The notes under the pieces were generated by a model that worked only from the letters and a program-made list of their open reading frames with translations, was not told where the DNA came from and did no database searches. Of a DNA stretch of 64,000 bases, positions 28,401 through 40,714 are shown piece by piece. Positions within the stretch are counted from its first letter, which is position 1. Each line of letters opens with the position of its first letter. This DNA is from an uncultured Collinsella sp. (GTDB lineage Bacteria > Actinomycetota > Coriobacteriia > Coriobacteriales > Coriobacteriaceae), in the NCBI GenBank assembly GCA_944321445.1, contig CALULJ010000008.1, positions 1 through 64,000 of the forward strand, given 5' to 3'. Position numbers and translations under genes: made by a program.

Positions 28401-31400
28401 TTAGTGGCTGTTGCGACGGCGCAGGTACAGGCCGGTCGCGATGAGCGCCGCGGCCGCCAGGCCGGTGCCACCGATAGCCGCGACGGCGAAGTCGCCGGTC
28501 TGCGGGATGCTCTCAGAGGGCTCTTCGGGCTTGGTAGGCTCCTCGGGCTCCTCAGGTTTCGTGGGCTCCTCAGGCTCGGGCTCGGGCGTCGGCTCGGGCT
28601 CCTCGCTGGGCTCGTACTCGTTCTCGAAGACCATGGGCGCGTCAGCGTTCTCCCAGGTCACCACAAGCTTGTTGCCCTGCTTGGTCACGTGCGCCGTAAT
28701 GGTGAACGTGGCCTCGTCGTAGGTGACGCCGTCGCTCTGGACGCCCTCGGTGTCGGGGTCGTCGTCGGCGGGCAGCACCTCGGTCACGGTGAACGTGTAG
28801 TCGCCGGCCTTGTCGAACACGAAGCCCTTTCCGCCGAACGTCACGTTGCCGGACGCATCGTTGGTGCCGGTCAGGCTCTTCGGCGAGACGTGTGAGGCGT
28901 TGTCGCCCGTGGCGGTGATGACGAAGGAGAACTCGCCGTCGACCAGGTCACGGCCGGTCAGCTTCTTGTCCACGTCGGTGTCCGGCTTGGACGGGTCGGA
29001 GGGATCGGGATCGACAGGCGTCGGCGGGGTGTACGGCTCGTCGTAGACGTTCTCGACGGTCGGGTTGTTGAACTCAACCGTAGCCTCGAGCTTACCGTCG
29101 TGATCCTCGTCGGTCACGTGCACGACGATGGTCTTGGGCGCGTTGTCGTACGCCCAGTTCGGGTCGTCGGTCGTCGTGATCTCGGTCACGGTGAAGTGGT
29201 AGTCGCCGACCGCGTTGAAGGTGAGGTCGCCGAAGTTCAAGGTCTCCTCGCCCTGCTTGCCGGTGAGGCCGGAGGTGGCCTTCACGATGCCGTCTGCCGT
29301 GATGCCCTCGATGTCCTCGAGCTTACCGGTGCTGTTCTCAGCGTCAAATGCGAGCACGAACTCGAACTCGGACGGAGCGTTGCCGCCGGTGACCCTCTTG
29401 GTCACCTGGAGGTCGGCCTCGTCGTCGCCCACGATCACGCCTGCAGGCGTGTAGGTGTTCTCGATGGTCGTGGTTTCCGGGTCAATGCTGTCAACAACAA
29501 GCTTGCCGTCCTGGTCCTCGACCGTGACCGTGATGGTCTTAGCCGCGTTGTCATAGGTCCAGCCACCTGCTGTGGTGGTCGTGAGCTCGGTCACCGTGAA
29601 GGTGTACTCGCCCGCAGCAGTGAAGGTCAGCCCGTCGAAGGACACGGTCTCGGAGCCCTCCCTGCCCGTCAGGCCCTTGGTCGAGGTCTCGATGCCCCCA
29701 GCCGGGAAAGCAGTCGCGGACTCGCCGGATCCAACGAACACATTGGCCGCATTATCGGACGTCAGCTTGAGCTCGAACTCGAACTCAGACAGCGCCGGAG
29801 CACCGGAAACCTTCTTGATTACCGAAATGACGGCATCATTCGGATCGCTCGCGTCGGGGTTGTAGACGTTCTCAACAGTCGGGTTGTTGGTGTCGATGCC
29901 GTCAACGACGGTGGTCGCATCGAGCTGGCCGTCAAAGCCATCGTCGGTCACTGTGACCGTGATGGTCTTGGCCGCGTTGTCATACGTCCATCCGTGCGCG
30001 CCCTCAGGCTTCGTCGTGGTCTCCACCACCGTGAACTTGTAGACACCGACCTTCTTGAAGATGAGGTCGCCGAAGCTCACGGTCTCCTCGCCCTGGGTAC
30101 CCTCGAGGCCAGCGGTCGCCTTCACGATGCCATCGCCGGTGATGCCATCGATATCCTCGAGCTTACCCGTGTTGCCCTCGGCGTCAGCGTCGAACGCGAG
30201 CGTGAACTCGAAATCGGACAGGGCGTTGCCGCCGATGACCTTCTTGGTCACCTTGAGGGCACCCTCGCCACCAACGGTCACGCTTGCAGGCACGTAGGTG
30301 TTCTGGATGGTCGGGTTGTTGCCCTCAATCGCATTCTCGGCGATTTCAAGCTTGCCGTCGCCATCGGTGTCGGTCACCGTAACCGTAATGGTCTTCGGCT
30401 GGTTGTCGTACTTCCAGTAGTCATGGTCGGATGTCGTGGTCTCCTTCACCTCGAAGGTGTACGTTCCCGCCTTGGTGAACGTCATGGAGCCGAAGCTTAC
30501 CGTCTCGGAACCCTTATTTTTCTCGAGGCCCTTGGTGCTTGCAGTAACACCGCCATCCGGGAAGGAAACGTCCTCACCTTCATCGTTCTTTACCTTGATG
30601 TCATCCTTGTTGCCAGACTTCAGAGTGAGCGCAAAGTCAAACTCGGACAGCGCCGGAGCACCCACAACCTCCTTGGTCACCTGGATCTGGGCCTGGTCAT
30701 CGCCGCCAATCTCAGTGCCCTCGGGGATGTACGTGTTAGTGACTGTGAACAGCAGAGCATTCTCGGGATTCGTCGTGACGGTGATGTTGCCGGCACCATC
30801 GTCCTTCACGGTCACCGTGATGGTCTTTGTGCTGGTGTCGTACGTCACGCCTTCCATCTTCTCATTTTCGGCAGGCCCGTTCTCGGTCACCTCATAGGTG
30901 AACGTCTTCTCGCGCTTCTCACCGGAAGCGGCAAGCGTGTTCGGTAAAGGCGTGACGCCCCAGGTGTTCTCGAGCGTGTAGTCGATGGTGCCGAAGTCAA
31001 CCTTACCGTCGGCGTCATTCTTGACCGTCTTCGAGCCGTCGACAGCGCCCTCGGGCATCGGAGCGTTCGGGTTGCTCTCGCTCGGCTTCAGTGTAAAGCT
31101 GAACTCGCCGCCCTTCAGGTCGGGAGCGTCAACGCCCTCCATGCCGGACTTGAGCACCTTCTCGCCCACGATGTTGAGCTTAGAGCCCTCGGCGCTATGC
31201 TCGGTCTCATCGTACTTGTTCTTGAACTGCAGCGGAGCATTCGCCTCGCCGTAGTTGACAGACGTGTCCATCGTGCCGTTGCCGTTGTCCTTGACGGTCA
31301 CAGTTACCTTGTAGGACGTAGCACCAACAGTCGTAACGCTTTCCGGCAGGTTGTCGATCTTCTCGGACACGGTGTAGGCAATGGTGTAGGTCGCGAGGTC

Positions 31401-34400
31401 GGTGCCCTCGTCGGCCGTCTTGGTCACGCCGGACTCCTTGTCCTTCGCGAGCTCGTCGAGCTCGTTGCTGTTGTAGGAGATCTCGTCGAAGGAGATGGCA
31501 GCAGCCTTGCCCTCGTCGGCGCCAGCGTTCTTGCCCTCAGCGACCACGTTACCCTTGGCGTCCTTCACCTCGAACGTGAACTCGCCCTGGAGCAGCTCGC
31601 GACCGGACAGGGTCTTCTTGGCCTCGATGGAGGCCTTGCCCTCGGCGTTGAGGCCGCCCGTGCCCTTGTACTCATTGGTGAACGCGGCAACGGCGGTTTC
31701 GTTCGCATCGGCCTCGGTCACGGCGTCGGTGTTCTTCACCGTCACCTCTGCCTCGAGCTTGCCGTCGGCATCGGTGTCGGTCACCTCGACAGTCACCGTG
31801 GCGGTATGCCCGTCGTAGGTCAGGCCGTCCTTGCCCCCGTTCGTCTCGGTGATGGTGTACTCGTAGGTTCCGACCTCGTCATACGTGATGTCGCCGAACG
31901 TCGCGACCTTGGGGGCGCTCACGTCGGTGATGGTCACCTTGGCGCCGTCGCGCTCGGGAATCGGGGCCGTGGCACCCTCGATGACGTTGCCCTCGTGATC
32001 CTTAACGGCACCAGCAGTGAGCACGAACTCGAAGCTGTCGCCGTCGATCCAGTTGCGGCCGCTCAGCGTCTTCTGGACGCTGATGGAGGCGTCGCCGCCC
32101 TCGCCGACGGTCACCTTCTCCGGAGTGTACTTGTTCACGAAGGAGAACAGCGGGGCATCCGCAGTCACGGCAGGATTGGTTTCCACCGTGACCTTGCCCT
32201 TGCCGTCGTCGTGCACGTGCACGATGAACGTCTTAGCGGAGTCCTCGGTAACGCCGGCCACCTTCGACTCTTCCTCGGTCACCGTGTACTTGAAGTACGC
32301 GTCGCGCTCCACGCCGCCAACGGCAAACGTCGTCACTTGGCGTCCCCACACGTTTTCAACCGTGAAGTCGATGGTGCCGAAATCAACGTTACCCTCGGCA
32401 TCATTCGAGACCGTCTTCGAGCCATCAGTGTCGGTACCCTCGGGCATGGGAGCGGGTTTTCCGCCCTCAACCGGATTACCGTCCTTATCGACCTGCTCGC
32501 CCGTCAGCGTGAAGGAGAACATGTTGTCCCTCAACTCGGGGGCGTCGACGCCGGCCATGGTGGACTCGATGGACTTCGTGCCCTCAACAGCGATCTCGGT
32601 GTCGGAACCCTCCTTCTCCTCATAGATATTCTTGAAGCCGAGCGATGAGGTGCCGGTGGGATAGTTCACCTTGACGGACAGCTTGCCGTCACCGTCGTCA
32701 GCAACAACAACGGTGATATCGAACGATGTCGCGCCATCGGGCGTCACGCCGGCATCGCTCAGTCCGGTCTTATCCTCTTCCACCTTGTAAGAAATGGTGT
32801 ACGAGGCCAAATCCGTCTTGTCGTCAACCGACTTGGTCACACCCGTCTTCTCGGGGTCCTTTGACTTCAGCTCGAGATCCTTGATCTCATATTTAATGGC
32901 GCTGAACGTGATGGCTGCAGCATCGCCGTCCTCGGCGGGAGCATTGGTTCCCGTAGAAACCGTCTGACCGGCCTTATCCGTGACCTTGAAGGTGAATTCC
33001 TCCTTCTCCATGTTACGGCCGGTCAGGGTCTTGTTGGCAGCGATGCTCACCTCGCCGTTTCCGCCAAGCTCACCAGTAGAGGTATAGGTGTTGGTGAAGT
33101 CGACGCGGCCCGTACCCTCGTACGGTTCACCATCGCGTGTGATGGTAGCGGTGCGGTTCAGGACATGCTCACCGTCCTGCACAACGTCCTCGATCACGAC
33201 GGTCACGACGTAGGTCGAGCTGTCCTTGGTAACACCCGCCACCGTGCTGTTGCGCTCGGTGATGGTGTACACATAGGTGCCCTCGTGCGTGTAGGTGGGA
33301 ACGCCCGTGCCAAACGCATAGCTGTTGCCCGTCGCGCTCTGCGAGGGGTTGATGGTGATGTTGTACCTCAGCCCACCGTTAGTCTCGGTGAGATCAGCAA
33401 CGTTACCTGCCAGGTTGTTGAAGTTGAACTCCGGCAGATCGTCCTTGGCAATCCCATCAGCCTTCATCGACACGTCGAAGGTGAAGGTGTCGCCCTGTTG
33501 CCAATTGCGGCCGCTCAGCGTCTTGAAGATCTGGATGCCGCCCGTAATCGTGCCGGCGTCGTACTTGTTGACGAAGTCGAGGCTACCCAGAGTCGCGGGG
33601 ACATTCTCGGTATCGCCCGAGTTCACCAGAACGGCCTCGCCCTCGGCGGTGATCTCACCGGTCGCCAGATCCTCGGTCACCGTGATGGTAACCGTGTACG
33701 TGCGGCCAGGATTCACTGCGCTCACGCCGGCGGGCATATCGGTTTCGTTCTCGTACACGTTGTACTGGAACGCCTTGCTGATCTTGCCGTCGTTGTCGTC
33801 GTCGGTCACGCCGGCCAGATCATCATGGTCGAAGGTGATGCTGCCGAAGCTGTAGTCGGCGGTATACGCATGCGCGTCGGTGTTCGTATTCTTAACCGAC
33901 ACGACCTTGTAGCCGTTAGTGTCAGTCTCAACCGTCAGGTTGTCGGGCATCGGATTGGCTTCAGCCTGCGCACGCATGACGAACGTGAACTGATCGTCGG
34001 CCATCTGGAACGAACCAACGTTGTCCTCGACCGTCTTGTGGCCGCTCAGCATCTCGTCGGCTTCGAGACCGAAGGTGTAGGGCTTGCCCTCGAAGGTGTT
34101 GACGAACTCGACGGAGGCATCGTCCGTGCCCGGAGTCACCTTGGCCTGCAGCGTGCCGGAACCGTTATCGGTCACCTCAACGGTGATGGTACCGACGTGG
34201 CGGTCGTAAGTCATACCGTTAGTGCCGTCCTCGGGCAGTTCTTCGCCGTTGTGCTGCGTCTCGGTCACATTGAAGGTGTACGTGCCGGGCTCAGAGAACA
34301 GGTAGGTGCCGGCGAACCAGAAGGTGCCGTTCTTGTCGTTCTGCTCGTTAGCCGTGGCGGTAGCGCTCTCAAAGGCAACCGGCTCGGTACCCTCGGCCGC

Positions 34401-37400
34401 GTTGACGGGGAGATACGTCACGTTATCCCACGAAGCACCTTCAGACACGGCGCCCTTGGTCAGCTCGAAACCGAAGGTCTCGTTGTCGAGCCAGCCACGC
34501 CCGTTGATCATCTTGGTGCCTGCGAAGGTGGCCTCGCCACCCTCAACGGTAGCCGTACCGGCCTTGTAGGTGTTCTCGAATTGGGCAGGACCGCTAACGG
34601 TGGCGTGGAGGCTGCCGTCGTAGTTGCCATCAGCATCAGTCTCGGACACGGTCACCGTGATGGTTTGAGTGCTGTTATCGTAGGTCCAGCCGGCGGGATC
34701 GGTGGTCTCGTCCTGAGCCTCGTCCTCAGTCACGTTGAACGTATAGGTGCCGGGCTCGGTGAACGTAATCTCACCAAACTGAGCGCTGTGCGTGGCGCCG
34801 TCGGCAAAGCTCTCGGTCACCGCGGTCTTATCGGCAGCGCCCTCTTCGTACTCGACGGTGCTCCAATCGACACCCTCCTCCTCAACAGGAGCGAAGGTGA
34901 AGTGGAAGTCGGCATCGGTGGACCAACCCTTGACCGTCTTCTCGACCGTCAGAGCCTCGGCAGCGTCGCCGCCGATGGTGACGGTGCCGTGGTCGTACTT
35001 ATTCTCAATCGTCGGGTTGTTGCCCGTCACATCGCCGATGTAGAGATTGCCGTCATACTGAGGTGCATCCCCGCCGGGCTCGTAGTCGGGATTAATGTCC
35101 GTAACCTCGACAGTGATCGTCCTAGGCGTCGTATCGAACGCCCAACCGTCGTCAGCGGCAGGCTGATTCTCCTGCACCGTGAAGGTGTAGGTACCCGGCT
35201 CAGTAAAGGTCAGCGTGTCGAAGCTCAAGGTCTGGGTGTTACCAGCCGCGATAGTTCCGCTGGTGGTCTCCGTGGTCTGATGATTCTCATCAAGACCCTT
35301 GATGTTCGCCACGGGTCCCTCAGTAGTATCCTGCGCGGTCAGCGTGAAGGTGTAGTCCGCAGCGGACGGGGCACCGGTAACCCTCTTGGTCACCTGCAGC
35401 GCATTGTCGGTGTCCTCGCCCATGTCGACGGAATTCGGGTTGTAGTCGTTCACGAAGCCGAAGGTCGGAACCACGTAGCCATCAGCATCGGAATTGGCGT
35501 GATTAACAACGACCTTACCGCCGTCCGCAATCTCGTTTCCATCCTTATCCAGGGTCTGAGTAACCGTGGTCACGGCATGCATGGTGCCGTCACCGTTGTC
35601 CACAACCTCGATCTCGACCTTATACTGAGACTTGTCGTAGCTAACGCCCGCGAGTCCCTCGCCCTCGACGGGCTCGGTCTCGTCCACGATGAACGTATAG
35701 GTCTTGCCAGCGTCCGTCTCATCAAAGGTCAGGCTCTGGAACTTGGCCATGGTGATGGTCTGATCGGCCGCCGCTCCCGTGTTCTGGAAGCTCTCGTCAG
35801 CGTTAGTGGTCAGATCCGCCGCATCGCCCTCGCCGGTAATGGTGAAGGTGAATTCGCCAGCGGTCATCGGGCGGTCGAGGAGCTGCTTGGTGACGTTGAT
35901 GCCACCCTTGCCCTCAGCACCGTACTTCAGCTCTGCCTCGTAGACGTTGGTAAACACGGCCTTGCCGGTCTCGTCGCTACCATTGTTCTCGTAAACAATG
36001 GGACCGTCGAGCACCAGCGCGCCGTTGCCGCCGTCCTTGACCTTGATGGTCACCTTGGCGACATTCTGGCTGTAGGTCATACCGTTGCCATTAGCGGTCT
36101 CGGTTCCTTGATCGTCAGCAACCTCGTTCACGGTAAAGGTGTACGTACCGGCCTTAGAGAAGGTGAGCGCGCTAAACGCGAAGTCCATACCGCTGGCCTT
36201 GGTGACAGTCTTCACCTCGGGATCAGCAAGCACTGTCTCCGGGCCGCCCGTCTGCTCCAGCTGGAAGTAGAACGTCTCGTTTTCGCCTATCTCGCGACCC
36301 TGCATCACCTTGGTGCCATGAATGGCCTCGTTGCCCTTCAGCGTATAGTCCGTCGGATCATAGACGTTGATGAACTTCACATCGGCAGGCTGCATGCTGG
36401 GCGTGGCCACGAGGTGCATGCCCTCACCCTGCTCGTTGGGCTCATCGGTTATCTCAACGGTGACGGTGTACACCGTGCCGTCATAGGTCATGCCGTTCAC
36501 CGACCAGGTGCCATTTTCGTTCTGGGTTGCATCCTCGGGGATAACCTCACGGATCTCGTAGATATAGGTGTTGTTCAGATGCGTTCCGTTATACCTGATG
36601 GTCTGGAACGCGAAACCATCAGGGTTCGTGCCATTGTTGCCAATGGTGATGGTGTGCGTATCCGCATCCGCGCCCTCGGGCATCGGGACGTCAGCCGCCT
36701 CAATAGTCGGGTTCTGCGCGGAGCCACCGTTGGTTGCGTAGCCGCCGATCGCCTTCAGCTCAAACGTGAACTTGTTGGCTGCGTTCGGATTGGCACCGGA
36801 GTTGTCCGTGTAATACTTGGTACCGTTGAGGTTGGTCGTGGCCTCCGTAGCATCGTAGTTGTTGGTGAACACGACCGTATTGTCGGTAATCTGCGGCTGC
36901 TCAGCAGGCGTGTTGCCGTCCACGTCAGTGCGCTGCGTGAACTGGACGGACTGAATCTCGAGCTTGCCCGTGCCGTTATCCACAACAGTAATGGTCACCG
37001 CATAGGTCTCGTTGGAGTAATCGATACCCGCGATCGGGTCGGTATCGTTGTCCTCCTCGATGACATAGGTGAACGTGCCCGGGTTCTCAAACTTGATGTT
37101 GCTCAGGTTGACGGTGTAGTCAGCAGCAGCATCCTCGTCGTCGACCACGACAGCGTCAGTGGACTCAGGCGCAGGGGCACCGCCCTCGGGAAGCATGGTG
37201 AACCTAAACTCGTCAGTATCCTGCCACTCGCGTCCGGTCAGATTCTTCTTCACCTTGACCAGCTGGTTGGCGCCTTCCAGCGTCACCTCAGTTGCGTGAT
37301 AGGTGTTGGTGAACATCGCAGTCTGCTGGCTGCCGCCCACAATGGTACCCTCGACAATACCGTCGTCGGTCTTGGCATTCTCGCCTGTCGAATTGTCCGT

Positions 37401-40145
37401 CGTGGCAAAACCGTTCTGGTTCGCAGTCTGCTCGGTCACGGTGTACTGAGCGCCATTGGGCAGGTCGGAAATCACGACATACTGACCGCCCTCAAGGGTA
37501 ATCTCACCGTTGTCAGAGACGGTACCCTCGCTCACAGGCGTCTCGCCCGTTGCGTATACGGCGTAGTCGTATTGGTTGGTGAGGTTGGTCTCAGCGCCGC
37601 CCTCGCCCACGGTGTACAGATGTACCGTGAACTTGAAGGTGTTCTTGTCCGCCTGTGTCTCGCTGGAGGCATTGCCCCAGTCGACATTCTTGTCGATGCG
37701 CAGATCGCCAGGAGCGTCAACGGAAAGCTTGCCGTTGTTACCCAGCTTCTGAGACACACTGTTGCCAACCCACGTCGGGGTCAGGACCGTAGAAGCGGTA
37801 CCTGTGAGATTCTCGCCCTTGTTGGACACGAGAGTTCCCGGACGATCCGCACGAGGCGTATCCGCCGCGATGTAAACGTTGCCGTTCCGGTAGGTAACAT
37901 TCCAGTCGTTACCACTACGGGTAATGGAACCGTTAGCGGGAACCTCTACAGCTCCGTTGTCATTTCCTGTCAGCTGCCAATAGCTGTCCTGATAATAGAG
38001 AGTATTGTACCGCGCGATATTGTTGGGCGTAGCCGGCTGCGTGCAATCCTCGTCGATGAAGAGCTGTGTATTGACGGGGTAGTAGTAGAACTTGTTTCCG
38101 TCGCTCGGCGTGAAGGAGGCCTCGGTCGTGCCCTGGGCGGCTTCCTGTACGAAGCTGTTGGAGTAGAAATCAACGGTCGTTCCGTCAGCAGAGGTCTGCG
38201 CCAGAACCGCATCATGATTTGCATCCTGCGGATTATTCAGAGCATCGATGACCCCATCCTTAACGCTGACGCCATAGAACAGACGAACCGGGAAGGTGTC
38301 ACTCACGGTCATCGTGCCATTGTCGGTGTCAACGTCATAGTTACGCATCGGGATGAGCGACGCGGGAATCTGCACGGTAATGATGTCACCCGTCGCAAGG
38401 TCGTTGCTCTTGGTGACCGTTACTTTGATTTCCGAAAGATCTGCACCCTCGGGGTAGGCGGTGTTCACGCCATTGCCCTCGTTGACAACGCCGGAGAACG
38501 TCCAAGTATTGCCACGGTCACTGGTCGTGCCCTCATGGAGTCCGTCAGCGAACGCAAGATACATCTTGTTGTTGTCCGCACCCACACCCGTGACTTCCAT
38601 GAAGGAACCAAGGGTGTCGGTAAAGGTCAGGTAGCCAGGGGTACCCGCGGCGCCCTCCACCTCTTCAATCGGAGAACCGGAGCCTTGATTGATGGGGAGA
38701 GACTCGGTGATGTCCTCAAACACCTGGTTGAGCTCATCGGCGTTGGAGGCAGCAAAGTAGTACTGCGGGGTCTCCTCCCCTTCGGCCCCTTCAACACGGT
38801 CGCCAAGAACGAGGTCACCGTAGTCGTCGGTCTGTCGCCACTCATACTGCGGATTCCAGAATGATCCAACGTTTACATTATCCGCGCACTCGGCATCAGG
38901 ATAATTACTCGAGACCGCGTTCATATAGCGATTGAAGTCATTGTTCGTGTCAGAGGGGTTGGCTCCTTGGAACACGCCGATGCTGTAAACAAGCGCACCG
39001 TCCTGCTTCATATCGTATGCATAGTTGATAGCCGTACCGGCAACGCTATCGCTCCAGCTTGAAGAGGTGGTGGGGTTGCCATCAGTGAAGAAGATGACGA
39101 TCTTCTGTGCGTTTGTGCGCGCGCCCGTGAGATTGCCGTCACCGTCGAGAACACGCTGCGCCTGATGCATGCCGTAGTCAGCACGTGTTGCGCCTTCACC
39201 CTCCAGGGAGTTGATTGTGTTTTTGAGGGTTGATGCATTCTGCGTCGTGTACGCAGTCAAATCCGAAACGACTTGAGAAAAGTTGTACCCGTCCCAATTG
39301 GTACCGTTGCCAATCGAGTTGTTCTCGTCGCTTGCAAACTTAACAAGTGAGATGCGGTGCTGCTGAGCAGTATCGGTAATGCCGTCATTCATGGCAGCAA
39401 CAGAATCCACAAAGGCATTGGCGGCATTCTGGAGTGCCTCCATGCGGCTCATCTGCTGGTTAGAGCGCGTGTAGAACTGGACGCGACCGTCAGCAGTATC
39501 GCCTTCCCAACGCATAGGAGTAACGTACGTGCGGTTGTAGCTCGGTCCGTAATACCAACCTTGGTTGTTGTGCTCAAGCTCAGTCCATTGACCATTGACC
39601 TGGATGTAATAATTATTCCGGTTGTTAGTGTTATAGGTGGGGCTGTAGGAATAGCCCATGTCGTGACCGCTGTTGTTGTCCATCGAACCAGAAGTATCCA
39701 CCACGAGAACAATATCGAGCGGGGTGGTGTTGGTAACAACAGATTTCAGGTTGGAGGTAGAGGAGATGGCAGACAGGCTCACCAAGAAGTCGGAATCGGA
39801 ACCCTTTACGACGCTCGTGTCATCAAGCGCGCCCTCGAAGTTATAGTCATCATTAAAGACACTTTTATCAGTCCAAATGCGACCTATGTTCTCCGTGCTC
39901 TTAGAGTTCGCCGCCAGCGTCTCCCATGCGTTCGTCGTGTCGGGATCCACCACGGTGTCAGCGCCGTCGACAGCATAAAGTTCAATCTCGCTGTCAGCAC
40001 TAAACAGCGAGATCCCAAACAGCTGTTGCGTTATTCCATTAACACCATTGGAAATTGCGTTCCCCAAATCCTCCAGGGGATTCGCATACGCTCCGGGAAC
40101 CGCCACGGAGCATGCGATCGCGATTGCCATCATCACGGCAATCAC
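28401..40145 (-). CDS. Giant LPXTG-type surface adhesin: vWA domain plus about 20 pilin-type isopeptide repeats
   Basis: About 3,914 residues. After a hydrophobic signal stretch (VMMAIAIACSVAVPGAYA) comes a von Willebrand A domain with its metal site DIVLVVDTSGSM at about 145-155, a linker domain, a first CnaB-like module, then by my count 19 modules of the Spy0128/FctA pilin type. Each has a Lys strand (VTKTLSGR-like), a Glu strand (TFTVTE or YTITE) and an Asn end (FENTY or FVNKY), the residues that form internal isopeptide bonds. The tail is Pro/Glu-rich, then IPQTG, a membrane helix and RRRNSH, a sortase sorting signal. Predicted role: cell-wall-anchored stalk with adhesive tip. No sortase or pilin neighbours are here. 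The start shown (GTG) lacks a ribosome-binding site and the signal-peptide n-region; the likely true start is ATG 40233, out of frame because of a G tract. Confidence 0.92.
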   Translation of the reverse strand: MIAVMMAIAIACSVAVPGAYANPLEDLGNAISNGVNGITQQLFGISLFSADSEIELYAVDGADTVVDPDTTNAWETLAANSKSTENIGRIWTDKSVFNDDYNFEGALDDTSVVKGSDSDFLVSLSAISSTSNLKSVVTNTTPLDIVLVVDTSGSMDNNSGHDMGYSYSPTYNTNNRNNYYIQVNGQWTELEHNNQGWYYGPSYNRTYVTPMRWEGDTADGRVQFYTRSNQQMSRMEALQNAANAFVDSVAAMNDGITDTAQQHRISLVKFASDENNSIGNGTNWDGYNFSQVVSDLTAYTTQNASTLKNTINSLEGEGATRADYGMHQAQRVLDGDGNLTGARTNAQKIVIFFTDGNPTTSSSWSDSVAGTAINYAYDMKQDGALVYSIGVFQGANPSDTNNDFNRYMNAVSSNYPDAECADNVNVGSFWNPQYEWRQTDDYGDLVLGDRVEGAEGEETPQYYFAASNADELNQVFEDITESLPINQGSGSPIEEVEGAAGTPGYLTFTDTLGSFMEVTGVGADNNKMYLAFADGLHEGTTSDRGNTWTFSGVVNEGNGVNTAYPEGADLSEIKVTVTKSNDLATGDIITVQIPASLIPMRNYDVDTDNGTMTVSDTFPVRLFYGVSVKDGVIDALNNPQDANHDAVLAQTSADGTTVDFYSNSFVQEAAQGTTEASFTPSDGNKFYYYPVNTQLFIDEDCTQPATPNNIARYNTLYYQDSYWQLTGNDNGAVEVPANGSITRSGNDWNVTYRNGNVYIAADTPRADRPGTLVSNKGENLTGTASTVLTPTWVGNSVSQKLGNNGKLSVDAPGDLRIDKNVDWGNASSETQADKNTFKFTVHLYTVGEGGAETNLTNQYDYAVYATGETPVSEGTVSDNGEITLEGGQYVVISDLPNGAQYTVTEQTANQNGFATTDNSTGENAKTDDGIVEGTIVGGSQQTAMFTNTYHATEVTLEGANQLVKVKKNLTGREWQDTDEFRFTMLPEGGAPAPESTDAVVVDDEDAAADYTVNLSNIKFENPGTFTYVIEEDNDTDPIAGIDYSNETYAVTITVVDNGTGKLEIQSVQFTQRTDVDGNTPAEQPQITDNTVVFTNNYDATEATTNLNGTKYYTDNSGANPNAANKFTFELKAIGGYATNGGSAQNPTIEAADVPMPEGADADTHTITIGNNGTNPDGFAFQTIRYNGTHLNNTYIYEIREVIPEDATQNENGTWSVNGMTYDGTVYTVTVEITDEPNEQGEGMHLVATPSMQPADVKFINVYDPTDYTLKGNEAIHGTKVMQGREIGENETFYFQLEQTGGPETVLADPEVKTVTKASGMDFAFSALTFSKAGTYTFTVNEVADDQGTETANGNGMTYSQNVAKVTIKVKDGGNGALVLDGPIVYENNGSDETGKAVFTNVYEAELKYGAEGKGGINVTKQLLDRPMTAGEFTFTITGEGDAADLTTNADESFQNTGAAADQTITMAKFQSLTFDETDAGKTYTFIVDETEPVEGEGLAGVSYDKSQYKVEIEVVDNGDGTMHAVTTVTQTLDKDGNEIADGGKVVVNHANSDADGYVVPTFGFVNDYNPNSVDMGEDTDNALQVTKRVTGAPSAADYTFTLTAQDTTEGPVANIKGLDENHQTTETTSGTIAAGNTQTLSFDTLTFTEPGTYTFTVQENQPAADDGWAFDTTPRTITVEVTDINPDYEPGGDAPQYDGNLYIGDVTGNNPTIENKYDHGTVTIGGDAAEALTVEKTVKGWSTDADFHFTFAPVEEEGVDWSTVEYEEGAADKTAVTESFADGATHSAQFGEITFTEPGTYTFNVTEDEAQDETTDPAGWTYDNSTQTITVTVSETDADGNYDGSLHATVSGPAQFENTYKAGTATVEGGEATFAGTKMINGRGWLDNETFGFELTKGAVSEGASWDNVTYLPVNAAEGTEPVAFESATATANEQNDKNGTFWFAGTYLFSEPGTYTFNVTETQHNGEELPEDGTNGMTYDRHVGTITVEVTDNGSGTLQAKVTPGTDDASVEFVNTFEGKPYTFGLEADEMLSGHKTVEDNVGSFQMADDQFTFVMRAQAEANPMPDNLTVETDTNGYKVVSVKNTNTDAHAYTADYSFGSITFDHDDLAGVTDDDNDGKISKAFQYNVYENETDMPAGVSAVNPGRTYTVTITVTEDLATGEITAEGEAVLVNSGDTENVPATLGSLDFVNKYDAGTITGGIQIFKTLSGRNWQQGDTFTFDVSMKADGIAKDDLPEFNFNNLAGNVADLTETNGGLRYNITINPSQSATGNSYAFGTGVPTYTHEGTYVYTITERNSTVAGVTKDSSTYVVTVVIEDVVQDGEHVLNRTATITRDGEPYEGTGRVDFTNTYTSTGELGGNGEVSIAANKTLTGRNMEKEEFTFKVTDKAGQTVSTGTNAPAEDGDAAAITFSAIKYEIKDLELKSKDPEKTGVTKSVDDKTDLASYTISYKVEEDKTGLSDAGVTPDGATSFDITVVVADDGDGKLSVKVNYPTGTSSLGFKNIYEEKEGSDTEIAVEGTKSIESTMAGVDAPELRDNMFSFTLTGEQVDKDGNPVEGGKPAPMPEGTDTDGSKTVSNDAEGNVDFGTIDFTVENVWGRQVTTFAVGGVERDAYFKYTVTEEESKVAGVTEDSAKTFIVHVHDDGKGKVTVETNPAVTADAPLFSFVNKYTPEKVTVGEGGDASISVQKTLSGRNWIDGDSFEFVLTAGAVKDHEGNVIEGATAPIPERDGAKVTITDVSAPKVATFGDITYDEVGTYEYTITETNGGKDGLTYDGHTATVTVEVTDTDADGKLEAEVTVKNTDAVTEADANETAVAAFTNEYKGTGGLNAEGKASIEAKKTLSGRELLQGEFTFEVKDAKGNVVAEGKNAGADEGKAAAISFDEISYNSNELDELAKDKESGVTKTADEGTDLATYTIAYTVSEKIDNLPESVTTVGATSYKVTVTVKDNGNGTMDTSVNYGEANAPLQFKNKYDETEHSAEGSKLNIVGEKVLKSGMEGVDAPDLKGGEFSFTLKPSESNPNAPMPEGAVDGSKTVKNDADGKVDFGTIDYTLENTWGVTPLPNTLAASGEKREKTFTYEVTENGPAENEKMEGVTYDTSTKTITVTVKDDGAGNITVTTNPENALLFTVTNTYIPEGTEIGGDDQAQIQVTKEVVGAPALSEFDFALTLKSGNKDDIKVKNDEGEDVSFPDGGVTASTKGLEKNKGSETVSFGSMTFTKAGTYTFEVKETTTSDHDYWKYDNQPKTITVTVTDTDGDGKLEIAENAIEGNNPTIQNTYVPASVTVGGEGALKVTKKVIGGNALSDFEFTLAFDADAEGNTGKLEDIDGITGDGIVKATAGLEGTQGEETVSFGDLIFKKVGVYKFTVVETTTKPEGAHGWTYDNAAKTITVTVTDDGFDGQLDATTVVDGIDTNNPTVENVYNPDASDPNDAVISVIKKVSGAPALSEFEFELKLTSDNAANVFVGSGESATAFPAGGIETSTKGLTGREGSETVSFDGLTFTAAGEYTFTVTELTTTTAGGWTYDNAAKTITVTVEDQDGKLVVDSIDPETTTIENTYTPAGVIVGDDEADLQVTKRVTGGNAPSEFEFVLAFDAENSTGKLEDIEGITADGIVKATSGLTGKQGEETLNFGDLTFNAVGDYHFTVTEITTTDDPNWAYDNAPKTIVVHVTDEDHDGKLEATVEFNNPTVENVYDEPYTPPTPVDPDPSDPSKPDTDVDKKLTGRDLVDGEFSFVITATGDNASHVSPKSLTGTNDASGNVTFGGKGFVFDKAGDYTFTVTEVLPADDDPDTEGVQSDGVTYDEATFTITAHVTKQGNKLVVTWENADAPMVFENEYEPSEEPEPTPEPEPEEPTKPEEPEEPTKPEEPSESIPQTGDFAVAAIGGTGLAAAALIATGLYLRRRNSH

Positions 40146-40194
40146 AGCGGAGAACCGCTTACGAGCGGTATCAGAGGCTACTCGTTTGGAGCAA

Positions 40195-40233
40195 CCCCCC
40201 CCCCGTCACGTATTTTTCGAACCACCGACTCAT
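40195..40233 (-). promoter_or_regulatory. Upstream start codon and 10-G tract: probable phase-variation switch of the giant adhesin
   Basis: On the minus strand, AAGGA precedes ATG at 40233 by 9 bases. Translation gives MSRWFEKYVTGGG and then reaches a run of ten G (40195-40204). With ten G the frame ends at TGA after 20 codons. With nine (or twelve) G it joins the adhesin frame and adds CSKRVASDTARKRFSA ahead of the hydrophobic core, completing a textbook signal peptide. A stop (TGA at 40206-40208) lies just upstream in the adhesin frame, so no earlier in-frame start exists. Confidence 0.8.
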
Positions 40234-40714
40234 ACTAACCCATCCTTCTCGTCTGCTGCGATTAAGCAACGTTTATGGCCCTCGGCACCCGCATCACCCG
40301 CTTGATATCCGACCACGAGCTCTGCGTATGCCTACGGCCACGAACAGCGATACACGCGTAACACTTTAACACTTAATTTCCGCTTAAGGTTCGAGTTTAG
40401 GTTGAAATATCAGAACCCCTGCTGAATGAACGCTCCACACCATCATTTACCTGCACATATTCTTTTAAGAGCTTGTGTAAGGGATTTGTTTCCTCTTAAC
40501 GACGAACGCCCCCATCGCACCCGTAAACGGCTCCCGTTATCCGATGTTAAGCGCTCGCTCCACCGCGAGACTCCCAAACCCCTGCAAATCAACCCAGCAC
40601 CTATCCCTCCAATCATTCAATTTGCTTCTATAAAGCAATATCATGCACAATTCATATAGAACATACTCTATACTGCGTATTTACCTACCAAACCAACCCA
40701 CTGGAAGTCGCCCT
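40234..40714. other. Divergent intergenic region
   Basis: About 480 bases with lower GC than the flanks, holding the leaders of the giant adhesin (left) and the ATP-binding protein (right). A doubled word AACACTTTAACACTTAA is near 40358-40376. I see no convincing gene. Confidence 0.5.

Follow-up and report, generated by a model that had tools for sequence, protein, structure and literature searches.

The window, i.e., the whole 64 kb stretch of DNA analysed here, carries on its minus strand an open reading frame at 28401–40145 that encodes 3914 aa when counted from a GTG. A very large wall protein had been predicted at exactly this place, with a metal-binding vWA domain at its tip, about 20 Spy0128/FctA-type modules, and an IPQTG sorting signal, and each of these elements was recovered (Table 1). 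Pfam placed a VWA domain in the N-terminal tip, and the MIDAS motif is complete (DTSGS at aa 150, GATR at 318, TDGNP at 354), giving the protein a putative binding domain in the position of the N-terminal adhesive domain of fibrillar adhesins; an adhesive function of the tip is accordingly presumed. In profile searches against solved structures, the vWA similarity of the tip was weak, and the end of the tip region resembled the CnaB-like domains of vWA pilins. An AlphaFold2 (AF2) model of the tip built from two sequences reached a pLDDT of only 31. At the other end of the protein, IPQTG at aa 3880 is followed by a hydrophobic stretch and an RRR tail, which together form a predicted cell-wall anchor of the kind expected of a fibrillar adhesin.

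The gene lies between a convergent class V aminotransferase gene and a divergent HATPase_c_4 gene, beyond which phosphoglucomutase (PGM), tRNAs, and gyrA/gyrB are located; TilS is also among the neighbours. As predicted, the neighbours tested (aminotransferase, HATPase_c_4, PGM, TilS, gyrase) include neither a sortase nor a pilin gene, and in this the locus differs from a sortase-assembled pilus operon, where a class C sortase and distinct pilin genes are adjacent. The genome-wide sortase search that had been proposed returned three sortases in the draft genome (84 contigs), all away from the adhesin locus: a class C sortase adjoining a SpaH/EbpB-like pilin on contig C1, and two class B-like enzymes. 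Scans for consensus promoters and terminators found nothing. An antisense open frame of 1899 aa (window 33165–38864, plus strand) overlaps the adhesin gene and probably results from the codon bias of its repeats.

Table 1. Features of the adhesin gene, in coordinates of the window
Feature	Position	Strand	Basis or remark
Giant adhesin gene, from the Shine-Dalgarno-bearing ATG to the stop	28401..40233	-	ATG out of frame as assembled
Shine-Dalgarno-like AGAAGGA	40243..40249	-	Sequence; scored as AAGGA
Proposed true start codon ATG	40231..40233	-	No other start has a Shine-Dalgarno
Signal peptide region, intact in the in-frame reading alone	40083..40233	-	Translation
G10 homopolymer, candidate ON/OFF switch; G9 or G12 would restore the frame	40195..40204	-	
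vWA domain with complete MIDAS motif, aa about 143–480	38706..39719	-	Pfam and motifs
Remaining tip region, aa 481–812	37710..38705	-	Conserved in relatives
Module 1, DUF7601/CnaB-like, aa 813–949	37293..37709	-	Pfam
Modules 2–20, FctA/Spy0128-like isopeptide domains	28608..37292	-	Pfam, profile, AF2
Block of modules 7–10, 90.7% DNA identity over 1,991 bp to the syntenic allele of the sister species	33082..35057	-	Allele comparison
Pro/Glu-rich wall linker, IPQTG (28494–28508), membrane helix, basic tail	28404..28607	-	Sequence

A stalk of FctA modules and its mosaic history

The stalk consists of repeated domains, as do those of fibrillar adhesins, with 19 FctA (Spy0128-like, PF12892) stretches (E 3.5e-295) and one DUF7601 identified by Pfam. 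When it was cut into 20 modules, every one (20/20) had an invariant Lys close to its start, a central Glu, and an Asn towards its end. In the module profile, the first two of these residues align with their isopeptide counterparts in the Spy0128 N-domain, and the Asn aligns with the equivalent Asn of the T18.1 pilin. AF2 modelled one module as a confident beta-sandwich (pLDDT 87), for which Foldseek returned FctB and streptococcal backbone pilins (Spy0128) as the best matches. Profile match, fold, and Lys-Glu-Asn triad together identify the modules as FctA/Spy0128 domains, and isopeptide bonds within them are predicted from sequence and fold. In both fold and triad they resemble the Spy0128/FctA and FctB pilins of Streptococcus pyogenes; Spy0128, however, is a separate pilin joined by sortase, whereas the modules here are fused in one gene.

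The proposed covalent stalk made of a single chain is hence upheld, with one polypeptide, a triad in every module, and bonds that remain predictions. The novelty implied for it is not, since fibrillar adhesins are a known class of single chains with many isopeptide domains (PMC8286594, PMC12617251) that includes a giant adhesin of Mobiluncus with 7651 residues and 51 domains (PMC10619420). With this class the protein would share one long chain, an adhesive N-terminal tip, a repeated cross-linked Ig-like stalk, and a wall anchor; it differs in that its stalk is made of FctA modules and in the poly-G switch proposed below at its start codon, which is not described in these three reports.

The protein might instead form the tip of a pilus assembled by sortase, in which case the class C sortase and the shaft pilin would be encoded elsewhere in the genome. 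The sortase–pilin pair on contig C1 could serve in this way, tip pilins typically carry a vWA domain, and a pilin ORF of 2674 aa is known from Bifidobacterium breve (PMC9187656). Against this, the gene occupies a locus of its own where the neighbours tested comprise neither sortase nor pilin, its twenty modules already supply the length of a stalk, and that length varies from 7 to 26 modules among the relatives compared below, so that a role as pilus tip is considered unlikely and the reading as a stand-alone fibrillar adhesin is retained.

The module subtypes pointed out in the original prediction are real, and they pair along the chain: modules 10–12 with 13–15 (46% for 11/14, 49% for 12/15, and a weak 35% for 10/13), and modules 16–17 with 18–19 (52% and 63%). 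The longest exact repeat within the adhesin gene is 20 nt, which makes collapse or expansion of repeats during assembly unlikely, and the repeat artefact that had been named as a possible refutation was therefore rejected as an explanation of stalk length.

Protein identity to the sister-species allele is 44% in the tip, 35–43% in modules 2–6, and 28–41% in modules 11–20, versus 87–97% in modules 7–10, and the breakpoints of this block coincide with module borders. The block is as similar as the gyrase genes of the two species lead one to expect (90–91%); it is the rest of one of the two alleles that has been replaced. A more distant MAG allele (81% at gyrase) matches modules 1–6 at 86–89% and modules 14–20 at 67–83%, and is devoid of modules 7 and 9–13. 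As judged from these alleles, the stalk is a mosaic in which blocks of modules have been exchanged between lineages, varying the stalk. The module pairs and the mosaic support the duplication and recombination suggested earlier, to which exchange between lineages can now be added.

A G10 tract behind the proposed start codon

The GTG that opens the listed reading frame has neither a Shine-Dalgarno sequence nor the basic n-region of a signal peptide, and is probably not the real start. From the ATG at 40233, the frame as assembled ends after 20 codons; a run of ten Gs that starts nine codons past this ATG separates it from the long frame. With nine Gs, by contrast, the same frame joins a normal signal peptide and the entire adhesin. 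The signal peptide of the in-frame reading comprises an n-region with GGG contributed by the tract, a hydrophobic core, and an end in ...PGAYA, after which the cleavage site is predicted. The tract is the sole G or C run of at least 8 nt in the window, and G9 tracts elsewhere in the genome are mostly intergenic, antisense, or off start regions. A 5′ homopolymer of at least 8 nt that decides the reading frame marks the gene as a candidate for poly-G phase variation. The original prediction, while right about the stalk, the triads, the duplications, and the lack of a pilus operon, had erred on novelty and overlooked this tract.

Taken together, the locus is best explained as encoding a phase-variable fibrillar adhesin with module shuffling, a reading held with considerable confidence. 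The G tract would gain or lose a G during replication by slipped-strand mispairing. In the ON state (nine Gs), the ATG would read into the signal peptide and the protein would be exported and anchored, whereas in the OFF state, which the assembled genome would represent, translation would stop after about 20 codons. Once exported, the modules would lock themselves by isopeptide bonds into a rigid stalk of roughly 100 nm, which would be anchored by one of the sortases of the genome and hold the vWA tip away from the wall.

Poly-G phase-variable pili (bbr_0113 and bbr_1889) have been shown by experiment in B. breve UCC2003 (PMC9187656), where a G tract near the start likewise stands between a short ORF that has the translation signals and a very long ORF for a sortase substrate, and tract length sets the frame. 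There, however, the gene is the first of a pilus operon that includes a sortase of its own, whereas the present gene encodes a stand-alone single-chain adhesin in the class Coriobacteriia, in which similar tracts also lie on many unrelated surface genes. Coding poly-G tracts in surface genes with mixed frames are likewise found in the simple-sequence contingency loci of Campylobacter and Neisseria (PMC8355987, PMC3786947), although the frames are mixed there between strains, the hosts are Gram-negative, and the genes are different.

Tract length and reading frame among related adhesins

Relatives were collected by a search of the genus and family with the tip region, which found many homologous adhesins. 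The comparison set (n = 18, one genome per species) consisted of the window gene and 17 fetched genes, nearly all of them whole (L080 runs off its contig). A G9–G10 tract was present in 9/18 genes within a 240-nt zone spanning the 5′ end (4,320 nt over the whole set), compared with zero G runs of at least 7 nt in 166,866 nt of gene bodies (Poisson P about 3e-16, with the gene-body rate set at its 95% upper bound). Based on the most likely starts, three of the nine are in frame (L081, L087, L090) and six out of frame (the window gene, L039, L082, L083, L088, L091), where the state of L082 varies with the choice of start and the frame of L091 is broken a second time; this ratio is close to the one in three expected from random lengths. 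The homologous genes L083 (G10, out of frame) and L090 (G9, in frame) have the N-terminal peptide MAFWKKKTLAGGG in common. Half of these genes thus carry a tract in the same place, at in-frame and out-of-frame lengths, a pattern pointing to poly-G phase variation. L041 is the syntenic gene from a species with about 90% identity at gyrAB. It keeps TGGGC together with ACGGGTGGAGGTTGC, two synonymous changes away from the G9 reading of the window gene, and its broken G run reads as a fossil of the in-frame length. TGGGC was also considered as a conserved functional peptide and dropped, as other relatives have RGGGR, AGGGT, or AGGGS, so that the constant part is the glycine run itself.

It could be argued that G10 is a sequencing or assembly miscall of G9 without regulatory role in an ordinary, constitutive fibrillar adhesin. 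The genome is a draft, homopolymers are error-prone, and the authors of the B. breve study warn that published tract lengths can differ from those of the real population (PMC9187656). The tract is furthermore absent from half of the relatives, so that a switch is not obligatory. A miscall of this kind would hardly place tracts at the same position in nine of 18 related genes and never in gene bodies, yield out-of-frame lengths in six assemblies, or let the start-plus-tract layout exceed its reversed control across the class (see below); although the G10 of this draft could be a miscall, a constitutive gene is improbable as the full account. Alternatively, the tract could act by transcriptional or ribosomal slippage, with each DNA length giving a fixed full-length fraction and hence dosage instead of ON/OFF control. 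Slippage can occur on long G runs, six related genes keep the long frame open despite being out of frame, and some product could be made from the G10 allele in this way. Tract lengths nevertheless differ between near-identical genes, in-frame alleles exist as expected for switching at the DNA level, and DNA-level length variants have been shown in B. breve (PMC9187656), which leaves dosage by slippage with a slightly smaller chance than a miscall. A decaying pseudogene, with the frame break as its first lesion, would account for the gene being out of frame as assembled but is very improbable, given about 3,900 codons without another stop or frameshift, intact triads in 20/20 modules, an intact anchor, and a break that falls exactly in a tract recurring among relatives. 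Phase variation of a fibrillar adhesin remains the preferred reading.

Two further FctA genes in the genome of the window (2237 and 1594 aa) are both without G tracts. L042, a related adhesin, carries a coding G10 run and also a C11 run in the promoter region about 160–170 nt upstream of the gene start, possibly a second, transcriptional switch. In the L043/L091 relative, two G runs (G9 and G8) are found and the frame is broken at both.

Start-proximal G runs across the Coriobacteriia

Genomes were searched for the pattern AGGA, ATG, and a G9 run within 40 nt, with the pattern read backwards as a control. About 29 distinct places in 65 family genomes matched AGGA-ATG-G9 versus 4 reversed-pattern matches, and about 41 places in 246 class genomes matched the G10 version versus 12 reversed, counts that are upper bounds of real switches since some matches look like chance (short frames, low complexity). 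Large secreted or surface proteins begin at many of these places (vWA/GBS104-like, collagen-binding, BspA-like LRR, SpaA/PA14, C69 peptidase), and other places belong to genes for a Flp-like pilin, capsule-initiating sugar transferases, and a DNA methylase. The vWA/GBS104-like, collagen-binding, BspA-like LRR, SpaA/PA14, sugar transferase, and methylase genes are typical contingency types. Near-identical C69 peptidase genes of two species differ in their tract, which is G10 (out of frame) in one and G9 (in frame) in the other.

With moderate confidence, we propose that Coriobacteriia have widespread, so far undescribed poly-G contingency switches within about 13 codons after the start, often just before the signal-peptide core, that control adhesins (vWA-FctA, collagen-binding, LRR, SpaA/PA14), a Flp-like pilin, C69 peptidases, capsule-initiating sugar transferases, and DNA methylases, by which the composition of the surface would differ randomly between cells. 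The openly available literature yielded no account of poly-G switching in this class, for which inversion-based switching in Eggerthella lenta was the only phase variation found (PMC13174815). If the proposal is true, common gut, oral, and vaginal members of the class would randomly switch their largest surface proteins on and off, reference genomes would often show OFF-phase adhesins as shortened or broken genes, and, together with module exchange, giant adhesins would be both switchable and sequence-variable. Tract length in metagenomes or single colonies would directly test whether ON cells are selected during host colonisation, which has been reported for Bifidobacterium pili.

Several single tracts are recorded here as separate observations. 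In the genome of the window, a gene that fuses a MutH-type nuclease to a C5 DNA methylase contains a G13 run (L097; contig C3, 65164–65176, minus strand). Its last conserved methylase segment (RFRRLVPDELDELQGFP) is read in a different frame, and this restriction-modification gene may therefore be phase-variable as well. A second DNA methylase gene (L134, N6_N4_Mtase) has a G9 run after its start and is out of frame as assembled, making phase-variable methylation possible. Five species of the same genus have a common gene with a Flp-like pilin start and a 5′ G9 or G11 run (L112–L115, L123), out of frame in all five as assembled and with a DUF285 downstream in L113. In one distant class member (G085), seven runs of G10 or longer lie behind start sequences that resemble one another (mostly ATGACCGCCA), which looks as though a single switch cassette had been copied to several genes. 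Finally, related genes in four genomes (L151, L152, L153, L157) carry G10–G11 behind the start with differing lengths and frames, and a Bac_transf sugar transferase was found in L151 and L152.
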